Assembly (NCBI GenBank): GCA_022827345.1
Contig: JAJDTB010000030.1
Location: forward strand, 62,001 to 126,000
DNA length: 64,000 bases
DNA from: Gemmatimonadota bacterium
Lineage (GTDB): Bacteria > Gemmatimonadota > Gemmatimonadetes > Longimicrobiales > Gaopeijiaceae
Direction: 5' to 3'
Below the pieces are notes generated by a model. That model saw nothing but the letters and a program-made list of their open reading frames with translations, searched no databases and was not told the origin of the DNA. Positions within the stretch are counted from its first letter, which is position 1; every line of letters starts with the position of its first letter. Position numbers and translations under genes: made by a program. Of this stretch, positions 24,447 to 52,894 are shown piece after piece.

Positions 24447-26402
<1,956 letters not shown>

Positions 26403-26479
26403 CGCGATTCGCGGAGACACCCGGCTGCGGCGTTTCGGGTTGTGCTGGAGCCGCGTGGACCGACTGGGCACATGAGCAT

Positions 26480-26521
26480 TATGTAATGTTCGCTTTACAT
26501 AATGTAAAGTATACTTTACAT
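26480..26521 (-). repeat. Tandem pair of 21-bp dyad-symmetric units: ATGTAAAGTATACTTTACATT / ATGTAAAGCGAACATTACATA (minus strand)
   Basis: Direct reading. Unit 1 contains a perfect 20-bp palindrome ATGTAAAGTATACTTTACAT (26502-26521) and overlaps the ATG-TAA end of the acyltransferase gene. Same unit family as 51626-51667. Confidence 0.85.
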
Positions 26522-27388
26522 ATTGTCTGCCAGCGGATCCACGGTCGGCGGCCGCCGCCGGCCCCCCGGCTTCCGCTTGACCAGCTTCGCCGGCACGCCC
26601 ACGTGCACCCCGCCGGCCTCGGTGTCGCGGCTCACCAGGGCCCCGGCGCCCACCATCGAATCCGGGGCGAGGGTGGTCCCGGCGAGCACGGTGGCGTGGT
26701 AGGCGATCCGGACTCCGTCGCCGATGACGGTGCGGGGCGTGCGCACGTCGCGCGGATCGCCGATGTGGTGGCTGTGCGAGTAGACGTTCACGAAGTCCGA
26801 GACCGACGCGCCGTCGCCGATCCTGATTCCGCCCCGGTCGTCGAGCAGCACGTGCCGGTGCACGACCACGTCGTCGCCCACCTCCATCCGGTAGCCGAAG
26901 CTCAGCTTCACGAAATGGAACGCCTTGAAGTTCCTGCCGCAGCGGGCGAAGATGTGCCGGGCCAGGATGCGCCGGAACTTCACGCCCAGGTGCACGTTCT
27001 CTCCCAGCAGGCTCTTGTCGAACATCTCCCACAGCCAGATCAGCGGCTTGACCCTGTAGTAGCGATCGAGATCGGTATCCGCGTAGTACTCCGGCTCGAG
27101 CGTGACATTCCGCGGATCGAGCTGGTCGCGGAGGATGTCCACCGCAAGCGAGGGGCGGGCCGCGGGGCGTTCGGCTCCCGCCCGGCGCCCGGCTTCCTCG
27201 GTCCGCCCGGTTCCGCCGGGGAAGTAGATCTCCTCCAGGACCCGCCGGCACAGCTCGTTGCGGTCGGTTTCCGGGTCGGACAATTCCTCCTCCATGCCTG
27301 CCAGCCAGCGCCCGTAGCGATCGGCCGCGGCCTCGCCGATCGCGACGCTCCGCAGGGGGAGGAAGCGGTACTCGCCGCCGGAGGACAT
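26516..27388 (-). CDS. Hexapeptide-repeat (left-handed beta-helix) acyltransferase with ~130 aa N-terminal extension
   Basis: GYRMEVGDDVVVHRHVLLDDRGGIRIGDGASVSDFVNVYSHSHHIGD...TVIGDGVRIAYHATVLAGTTLAPDSMVGAGALVSRDTEAGGVHVGVPAKLVKRK; likely start MSSGGEYRFLPL at 27388. Confidence 0.85.
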   Translation of the reverse strand: MSSGGEYRFLPLRSVAIGEAAADRYGRWLAGMEEELSDPETDRNELCRRVLEEIYFPGGTGRTEEAGRRAGAERPAARPSLAVDILRDQLDPRNVTLEPEYYADTDLDRYYRVKPLIWLWEMFDKSLLGENVHLGVKFRRILARHIFARCGRNFKAFHFVKLSFGYRMEVGDDVVVHRHVLLDDRGGIRIGDGASVSDFVNVYSHSHHIGDPRDVRTPRTVIGDGVRIAYHATVLAGTTLAPDSMVGAGALVSRDTEAGGVHVGVPAKLVKRKPGGRRRPPTVDPLADNM

Positions 27389-50168: not shown

Positions 50169-51053
50169 ATGCGGGTCATCGAAATCCCCCGCTCCTTCGA
50201 CTACCGCAACATCGAGGCGCTCTATCGCCAGATCGACATGGATCGGCCCGGCCCGGTGCTCTTCGATCTGCGCAGGCTCCGCTGGGTCGATCCCAACGGC
50301 ATGCTCGGCATCCTGGCCGCCGGAAAGGTGGCCGCCGAGGCCGGATCCGCGCCGCGGATCTCGCTCCCCGACGAGCCGGAGATCACCAGCTACCTGGATC
50401 GCATGGGGTTTCGCGAGGCTGCCGGGGAGGTGTTCGAGTTCGGCGCCGCCTCGAAGTGGCGCCGCCGCGCGCGGGCTTCCGACGTGCTCCTCGAGATCAC
50501 CCCCGTCACGAGGAACTCGGACGTGCACCAGGTGGTGGACCGGGTGCAGTCGCGGGCGGGCGCCATCCTCTCCAACACCCTCGGCTACCCGGCGTCGGCC
50601 GTGGTCCAGTTCTCCGTGATTCTCTCCGAGGTGTGCCAGAACATCATCGAACACGCCGGGCGGCCCGGTTGGGTCGCCGCCCAGTCCTACAACTGGAAGC
50701 AGCGCCTCGGACGCCACGTGGCCATCATCTCGGTGGCCGACATCGGCCGCGGCTTCCGCGCCTCCCTGGAGGACGAGCACGCCTCCCGCTTCGGTGAGCG
50801 CTGGGGCGACGTGACCGCCCTCGAGGCCGCTTTCCTCATGGGACTGACCCGCTTCCCCGACACCGGCCGGGGACAGGGGATCCAGCAGATCCGCAAGCAG
50901 GTCGGGCGCTGGAACGGGCTCCTTTCGATCCGCAGCGGCAGCGCGCGGATTGCGGACACACCGGATTGGAGCAGCAAGCCTCCCCTCGAAGAGGGCCTGC
51001 GCCCGTTCCCCGGAGCCCAGATCAACATCATCCTCCCGGAGCGCACAGAATGA
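50169..51053 (+). CDS. STAS-like domain fused to HATPase_c-like (anti-sigma-factor-kinase type) domain
   Basis: N-terminal RPGPVLFDLRRLRWVDPNGMLGILAAGKVA (STAS-like); SVILSEVCQNIIEHAG (N-box-like); ISVADIGRGFRASL and GRGQGIQQIRKQV (GHKL G-box-like). Confidence 0.78.
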   Translation: MRVIEIPRSFDYRNIEALYRQIDMDRPGPVLFDLRRLRWVDPNGMLGILAAGKVAAEAGSAPRISLPDEPEITSYLDRMGFREAAGEVFEFGAASKWRRRARASDVLLEITPVTRNSDVHQVVDRVQSRAGAILSNTLGYPASAVVQFSVILSEVCQNIIEHAGRPGWVAAQSYNWKQRLGRHVAIISVADIGRGFRASLEDEHASRFGERWGDVTALEAAFLMGLTRFPDTGRGQGIQQIRKQVGRWNGLLSIRSGSARIADTPDWSSKPPLEEGLRPFPGAQINIILPERTE

Positions 51054-51631
51054 GCCAGCCGCGGCCGGCTTCCGTCAGCATCGACGTGGGCGCGATCGTC
51101 GCCCGCACGCTCGCGCCGCTCCGTCCCAACCTGGTCACGCGTCCAACGGGGAGGGCGGTTCGCGCAGCCATCGAGGAACGCCTCCGCGGAGCCGCGAGGG
51201 CGCCCTTCGTATCGCTCATCGACTTCACGCGAATCCGCGTGCTGGATTTCAGCTGCGCCGACGAAATCGTCGCCAAGCTCCTGGTCAGGTATATGAAGGC
51301 CGACCGCCCCCGCGATGTCTTCTTTCTCTTCCGGGCCGTCGGGGAGGTGCACGGGCAGTCGGTGGAGCAAGTCCTGCGAAGGCACGGACTGGCTGCGGTT
51401 TGCGACTATGCCAGGGACGGCTTCCGGCTTCTCGGGTCGGTTTCGGAGCGGGAGAGGACAGCCTGGCAGACGCTGGAGGTGCGCCGGAGGATCGGGCCCG
51501 CGGGCGTGGCCGACGCACTGGGGACTCGCGGCGATACGCTGCTGCGAAGGCTTGCCGAGCGCCGGCTGGTCTTCCGCGAACCCAACGGCACGGCGCTCGC
51601 TCTCAGTGCCCTGAGCACGTCACATATGTAA
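51050..51631 (+). CDS. STAS-like (DUF4325-type) protein with C-terminal winged-HTH-like segment
   Basis: FVSLIDFTRIRVLDFSCADEIVAKLLVRYMKADRPRDVFFLFRAVGEVHGQSVEQVLRRHGLAAVC; RRRIGPAGVADALGTRGDTLLRRLAERRLVFREPNG; ATGA overlap with the upstream gene; ends ...STSHM*. Confidence 0.65.
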   Translation: MSQPRPASVSIDVGAIVARTLAPLRPNLVTRPTGRAVRAAIEERLRGAARAPFVSLIDFTRIRVLDFSCADEIVAKLLVRYMKADRPRDVFFLFRAVGEVHGQSVEQVLRRHGLAAVCDYARDGFRLLGSVSERERTAWQTLEVRRRIGPAGVADALGTRGDTLLRRLAERRLVFREPNGTALALSALSTSHM

Positions 51632-51667
51632 TACAGACATGACAAAATGTAATGTGGACATGACATT
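51626..51667 (+). repeat. Tandem pair of 21-bp units: ATGTAATACAGACATGACAAA / ATGTAATGTGGACATGACATT
   Basis: Direct reading. Starts on the ATG-TAA end of the STAS-like/wHTH gene and lies 40 bp before the trans-sulfuration gene. Unit consensus shared with 26480-26521. Confidence 0.85.
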
Positions 51668-51706: not shown

Positions 51707-52894
51707 ATGAGCTCAAACGGTACGAATCCGGAACACGGACCAGCGACCCACGCGGTCCACGCAGGGAAGGGCGAGGTGCGCCCCGGCGGCCCCGTGGTCG
51801 ATCCCATCGTCCGCAGCTCCACCTTCTACTGGGCCGGCCCCCACGACGGGATCGACCTTCAGTACAGCCGTTACGGCAACAACCCCAACCAGCGCTCCGT
51901 CGCGGCCACGATCGCCGCGCTCGAAGGCACCGAGGACGCGCTGGCGCTGTCCAGCGGCATGGCCGCCATCTCGTCGACCCTGCTCGCCTGCGCCGAAGCG
52001 GGCGACCACATCGTGGCCAGCACCCACCTCTACGGCGCCACCCACGCCCTCCTGGCGCACGAACTGCCCCGGCGCGGCATCACCACCACCTTCGTGGACC
52101 CGGACGACCCCGGCGCCTGGCGCGCGGCCCTTACCGCCGACACACGGGTCGTCCTCATCGAACTCCCCACCAACCCCACCCTGCGCGTCTTCGACATCGG
52201 CCCCCCGCGCGACGCCGCGCGCGACGCCGGCGCCGTCCTCGCCGCCGACATGACCTTCGCGACCCCGATCAACATCCGCGCCGCCCGGCACGGCGTCGAC
52301 GCCGTCATCCATTCGGCCACCAAGTACCTCGGCGGCCACTCCGACCTGATCGCCGGTGCCGTCGCGGGAAGCGCCGCGCTCATCCGGCGCGTCACGAAGA
52401 TGATGAAGCTCTACGGCGGCTCCATCGATCCTCAGGCGGCGTGGCTGCTCGAGCGCGGCATCCGCACCCTGCCGGTCCGCATGGAGCGCCACAACCGCAC
52501 CGCGCTCGCCCTCGCGCGGTGGTTCGCCGGCGTCGGCGGCGTGCGGCAGGTCATCCATCCCGGCCTCCCCGGCCACCCGGACCACGAGTGCGCCGCCCGC
52601 ATGCTGGACGGCTTCGGCGGCATGGTGTCGATCGTCCTCGAGGGGGGCGGCGCGGCCGCCGACCGCTTCTGCTCCAGCCTGTCGCTGGCGGCCGCGGCCC
52701 CGTCGCTGGGCGGCGTCGAGACGCTCGTGTCGCAGCCCCGCCACACCTCGCACGTGGACCTGTCCCCGGCCGAACGGGACGCGCTGGGCATCCCCGACGG
52801 TTTCGTGCGCATCTCGGTGGGCCTGGAGGACCTGGAGGACCTCAAGGCCGACTTCAGGGCCGCGGTGGCCGCATCGGTTCCGGCTGCCGTATAG
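51707..52894 (+). CDS. PLP-dependent trans-sulfuration enzyme (cystathionine gamma-synthase / methionine gamma-lyase family)
   Basis: QYSRYGNNPNQRSVAATIAALEGTEDALALSSGMAAISSTLLA...IHSATKYLGGHSDLIAGAVAG (PLP lysine)...YGGSIDPQAAWLLERGIRTLPVRMERHNRTA. Confidence 0.95.
   Translation: MSSNGTNPEHGPATHAVHAGKGEVRPGGPVVDPIVRSSTFYWAGPHDGIDLQYSRYGNNPNQRSVAATIAALEGTEDALALSSGMAAISSTLLACAEAGDHIVASTHLYGATHALLAHELPRRGITTTFVDPDDPGAWRAALTADTRVVLIELPTNPTLRVFDIGPPRDAARDAGAVLAADMTFATPINIRAARHGVDAVIHSATKYLGGHSDLIAGAVAGSAALIRRVTKMMKLYGGSIDPQAAWLLERGIRTLPVRMERHNRTALALARWFAGVGGVRQVIHPGLPGHPDHECAARMLDGFGGMVSIVLEGGGAAADRFCSSLSLAAAAPSLGGVETLVSQPRHTSHVDLSPAERDALGIPDGFVRISVGLEDLEDLKADFRAAVAASVPAAV

Follow-up and report, generated by a model that had tools for sequence, protein, structure and literature searches.

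Paired 20-bp dyads spaced 21 bp apart in one Gemmatimonadota genus: selected double-stranded sites of a putative chromosomal protein with a possible link to SMC

Chromosomal proteins that recognise dispersed palindromic sites are known from several bacterial systems. Noc and SlmA have tens of such sites per genome (NBS and SBS, respectively), and SlmA binds SBS as a dimer of dimers (PMC4726725), while parS, a site 16 bp long (PMC8494293), is a palindrome on the chromosome that is connected with the function of SMC (PMC7022226). The ARG boxes of ArgR are two 18-bp semi-palindromes 3 bp apart, giving a 21-bp period (PMC6640053), and REP/REPIN sequences are intergenic, numerous, lineage-specific paired palindromes (PMC8049555). 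Here we describe a 41-bp array of two dyads that occurs twice in a window of 64,000 nucleotides (GCA_022827345.1, contig JAJDTB010000030.1, positions 62,001 to 126,000) from a Gemmatimonadota bacterium, and that recurs throughout its genus. None of NBS/SBS, parS and ARG boxes fits these arrays in full, and no account of such repeats in Gemmatimonadota turned up in our literature searches. Coordinates refer to the window unless a contig or locus is named; the genome of the window is called G000, and codes in the style of G001–G022 denote the other genomes compared.

Each array consists of two 20-bp near-palindromic dyads, 21 bp apart and separated by a linker of one A/T, with the consensus dyad ATGTAAWGYNNRCWTKACAT; the half-site is TGTMA, and two half-sites make up a dyad of 18–20 bp. 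Array B (51626–51666) comprises, on the plus strand, dyad 1 at 51626–51645 (ATGTAATACAGACATGACAA, read directly) and dyad 2 at 51647–51666 (ATGTAATGTGGACATGACAT), 21 bp from the first, and as a whole it matches sequence model R1 with 35.4 bits (E 5.9e-10). Array A (26481–26521), to which no strand is assigned, comprises ATGTAATGTTCGCTTTACAT at 26481–26500 and the perfect palindrome ATGTAAAGTATACTTTACAT at 26502–26521. The sister genome G009 carries an orthologue of array B with the core bases largely retained, and lacks array A. The repeat given in a preliminary description of the window is confirmed by exact matches at 51626–51644 and 51647–51665, at a chance expectation of 0.01; the second locus that it placed at 26480 exists and starts at 26481, and its 21-bp unit is a 20-bp near-palindrome plus a 1-bp linker. 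Since the units, and the array as a whole, are near-palindromic, the orientation that it assigned to them relative to the adjacent gene means little. No Rfam family was found in the window. Variant dyads of the form ATGACAAG....CTTGTCAT, with both half-sites seemingly reversed, were seen at L050, L051, L068 and L125.

The preliminary description had also suggested a dispersed family of constant unit and period, and this holds genome-wide: a pattern search of G000 allowing up to one mismatch returned 99 matches on one strand and 97 on the other, and the reversed pattern, used as the control, gave none on either. Of 98 loci read in G000, 96 have a spacing of 21 bp and two a spacing of 20 bp. In unselected sequence, 1.17 Mb of G009 yielded 49 arrays, 0.39 Mb of G010 yielded 50 and 0.40 Mb of G021 yielded 17; all 116 have 21-bp spacing, and reversed sequences contained none. 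A 41-position sequence model detects arrays in every genome of the genus except G008 (22 of 23), with about 25–350 per genome (about 27 in G001 and, by extrapolation, about 350 in G010); in 17 genomes from outside the genus the pattern finds none. The named relatives of the locus are metagenome-assembled genomes of Gemmatimonadota/Longimicrobiales, and their isolate codes read as those of a sponge-associated group. Since G008 nests with G000, G009, G002 and G013 in a two-protein tree (FastTree 0.991; IQ-TREE backbone weak), among array-bearing species, it most likely lost the arrays as a set. A viral origin was considered and rejected; one IMG/VR contig has an array-like stretch, in an AT-rich phage region that is unrelated as far as seen. 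This marine phage contig (IMGVR_UViG_3300035211_000002; L392:955-995) has an array-like 41-mer together with further TGTAAA palindromes in the AT-rich stretch.

Across 27 arrays common to G000 and G009, substitutions numbered 19 of 540 (3.5%) in the TGTMA cores, 100 of 540 at the variable positions and 140 of 648 (21.6%) in the flanks of 12 bp on each side (P<1e-15), and as core divergence is far below that of the adjacent flanks, the array site is under purifying selection. Mirror positions within the dyad vary independently apart from two small exceptions (4/17 and 8/13); pairing at 5/16, 7/14, 9/12 and 10/11 is no more frequent than expected, and the dyad centre (10/11) is less complementary than expected. 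This independence argues for a double-stranded site, and the dyad looks like one read by a symmetric protein rather than like a hairpin. Of the possibilities raised in the preliminary description, a regulator-type site array fits best, given the double-stranded dyads, the selected cores and the 21-bp phasing, and there is good support for the array as a site of a chromosomal protein that is under selection.

One array departs from the general turnover of array positions, and it lies inside a gene. The smc gene of G009, whose product was identified by SMC_N (PF02463, 211 bits), holds an intragenic array at codons 347–361, in the coiled coil region. A DNA search located smc in 22 of the 23 genomes. 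G021 has the array at the same aligned bases (C1:3760518-3760556) and G017 the second dyad (C68:45579-45598), both without gaps, whereas in G001 and G004 the position was predicted before the search (2280802-2280842 and C101:11557-11597) and arrays were found at 2280802-2280841 (E 5.5e-5) and C101:11558-11597 (E 8e-6). The smc array therefore stands at identical codons in five species. The residues that it encodes differ (CKVSFTLLQVNLT in G009 and, read from the match, CHSALTECKAELT in G021), and its 15 codons, two of them TTA, form the rarest 15-codon window of the gene, which argues that the DNA motif, and not the protein sequence, is what is selected. In G008 the smc match is equal in overall length and contains no array. 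An intragenic match in a G009 amidohydrolase gene (C35:85493) is probably due to chance, because it encodes residues that by eye seem ordinary for the family. An array kept at the same place of smc in five species suggests that the arrays are no stray repeat but belong to a chromosome-binding system not described before.

The reading that we tentatively favour, while granting it somewhat less than an even chance, is that the arrays are paired binding sites of a chromosomal protein that mark the chromosome and are probably linked to SMC. An array could be a composite double-stranded site at which a sequence-specific chromosomal protein binds as two dimers or as one hexamer, since dyads 21 bp apart, or two helical turns, would present both to the same helix face. 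Such a protein would mark the chromosome through arrays that number about one per 8 kb to one per 150 kb, with individual positions mattering little, and may organise it by analogy with parS, NBS, SBS and matS. The SMC machinery would be its probable partner, because among the genes checked smc alone has a conserved intragenic site; protein bound there may act as a roadblock that slows smc transcription and so exerts feedback on smc. The protein, its stoichiometry, the link to SMC and the feedback are inferred. The fuller proposal, a chromosome-organising site system of one Gemmatimonadota genus whose protein binds paired dyads all over the chromosome, works with SMC and controls smc through a site in its coding sequence, and whose arrays one species has lost as a set, is more doubtful than its core. 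The likeness to Noc and SlmA lies in numerous dispersed palindromic sites, which the arrays also are, but the sequence differs, and the arrays have two dyads at 21 bp and up to hundreds of sites. Sites of the Noc/SlmA type are bound by a ParB- or TetR-family protein and are depleted near the replication terminus. With parS they share a palindromic chromosomal site and a putative connection to SMC; arrays, however, are spread over the chromosome, and their sequence differs from that of parS.

Several results weigh against this reading. The binding protein has not been found, and a single site underlies the link to SMC, with an array known from the smc genes of five species and most smc genes of the genus not readable for it. 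Nor is smc the sole conserved place, because a GNAT acetyltransferase gene is preceded by an array, 9 bp from its start, in both G010 (C5:8618, L379) and G021 (L284:12662). Along the chromosome the arrays show no clear departure from uniformity that would speak for a macrodomain distribution or for depletion near the terminus (Kuiper P 0.10 in G001 and 0.04 for 18 strict sites in G021, the origin and terminus not being located). Spacing is even in G009 (P ~0.005) but not in G010 (P ~0.1), where pairs lie 55 and 75 bp apart; a minimum-distance repulsion between arrays, present in G009 and not in G010, was rejected.

The genes beside the arrays bear on two other explanations. Operators of a global transcription factor, on which a dimer-of-dimers regulator of the PadR, TetR or ArgR type would repress or activate adjacent genes, could account for palindromic dyads with helical phasing, a layout shared by ARG boxes (PMC6640053), and for some arrays lying 3–80 bp upstream of starts, including the GNAT gene in two species. 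Array adjacency of orthologues, however, is common to G000 and G009 (58 of 78; odds ratio, OR, 240) but not beyond, the OR with G010 being 0.79 for G000 and 0.54 for G009 and adjacency not being shared with G021 either; the arrays thus mark no conserved regulon. Their neighbours are mixed housekeeping and metabolic genes without a functional theme, and in unbiased samples divergent gaps are neither enriched nor avoided (OR 1.06) while convergent gaps are mildly favoured (OR 1.9, P 0.01). In G000, moreover, arrays are faced by 117 gene 3′ ends and by 75 5′ ends. We regard the operator explanation as unlikely. ArgR in particular would suit the layout of two 18-bp palindromes with a 3-bp gap; the ARG box half-site TGAAT, however, differs from TGTMA. 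ArgR was not found in the genome parts fetched, which are incomplete, and no arginine genes were noticed among the listed array neighbours. Protein-roadblock terminators or insulators at gene ends, with the smc copy as an intragenic attenuator, would instead explain why 3′ ends lie nearer to arrays (median 27 bp in G000 and 23 bp in G009) than 5′ ends do (80 and 109 bp). Intrinsic terminators are scarce, at about 2–5% of array-free 3′ ends, and RNA polymerase can be stopped by DNA-bound proteins (PMC10310618). Nevertheless, arrays stand at only a few percent of gene ends, and in G010 their frequency between divergent genes is about what it is elsewhere. Because 3′ ends at arrays are no different in terminators, arrays as substitutes for intrinsic terminators were rejected. 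We consider the roadblock explanation a little less probable still than operators. A strong gene-end preference, apparent from 29 convergent against 8 divergent gaps in the high-scoring G000 list, is weak in unbiased samples, and horizontally acquired neighbours were also rejected, the codon usage of adjacent genes not being atypical.

About as improbable as operators, in our judgement, are REP-like or other mobile short repeats kept by a transposase, the array being the element or its recognised end. Like REP/REPIN sequences, the arrays are paired, lineage-specific and dispersed in hundreds of copies, nearly all of them intergenic and 3′-shifted; their positions turn over rapidly, one lineage has lost them, several lie at indel borders between sister species, and a longer element in six copies carries an array. 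Unlike REP/REPIN-RAYT systems, however, they have a spacing fixed at 21 bp and lack the GTAG/GGAG-type terminal tetranucleotide that defines REPs (PMC3686654), and the Y1/RAYT transposase (PF01797) is present in none of the 23 genomes of the genus, although 5 of 14 control genomes were positive. The missing transposase and the lack of pairing covariation between mirror positions led us to reject a hairpin or REP origin. The flanks are unique, the core bases are under selection, and recent copying of the 41-mer was rejected too, as similar pairs are only mildly in excess of a column-independent simulation, at or below the simulated maximum; the mobile mini-repeat of the preliminary description is thus left without a clear recent-copy signature and without its transposase family. 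Its other suggestion, an insertion or recombination target, may hold, and the array may be a site prone to breakage or recombination: a comparison of G000 with G009 places arrays at the borders of indels at L068, L072, L074, L078, L081, L082, L085, L093, L119 and L121, and since G009 retains one dyad and has lost the other at L078 and L081, at least some of these indels are deletions. The six related copies of the longer dispersed element (L037, L044, L045, L048, L052 and L108), several of them about 180–260 bp, mostly have a central array, with flanks conserved on both sides.

Both arrays of the window overlap stop codons as first described, with TAA at 51629–51631 and, on the minus strand, at 26516–26518. 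The gene ending on the ATG-TAA of array B (50966–51631, plus strand; open reading frame from TTG, later start possible) has no Pfam family that we could find, and 40 bp downstream of the array lies a gene for a Cys/Met metabolism pyridoxal-phosphate-dependent enzyme (51707–52894, plus strand; PF01053, E 1.3e-114). The acyltransferase-like gene at 26516–27388 (minus strand; 5′ end approximate, function by inspection only) has its last codons, ATG-TAA, within array A and is convergent with an acetyl-CoA-synthetase-like gene ending at 26402. A supply of stop codons by the repeat is not borne out: only 12 of the 117 array-facing gene 3′ ends in G000 are exactly the ATG-TAA of the array, and C-termini hardly differ from those of array-free orthologues, the array B gene ending in ...LSALSTSHM against ...LSAVASHRSHT. 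The link is incidental, the stop codon being a by-product of TAA at array positions 4–6 where an array lies against a gene end. At the array B locus no array was present in twelve other species examined; in four named relatives an array lies about 1.6 kb further upstream instead. At the boundary orthologous to 26403–26515, the place of array A in G000, another palindromic repeat, AACCCTAACGTTACGTCAGGGTT, occurs twice in G012 (L161) and once in G006 (L164). Among the listed 5′-facing neighbours in G000 just one clear helix-turn-helix gene was noticed; it encodes an XRE-HTH and PBP-like regulator (L083:1827-2933), and in both sister genomes an array lies 37 bp upstream of it.

Should the arrays be the sites of an SMC-linked chromosomal protein, they would represent a nucleoid-marking system outside the model bacteria that is readable from sequence alone. 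G008 would then be a natural loss mutant, the conserved intragenic smc site would give a direct prediction on SMC control, and the arrays themselves would provide ready-made bait for finding the protein.
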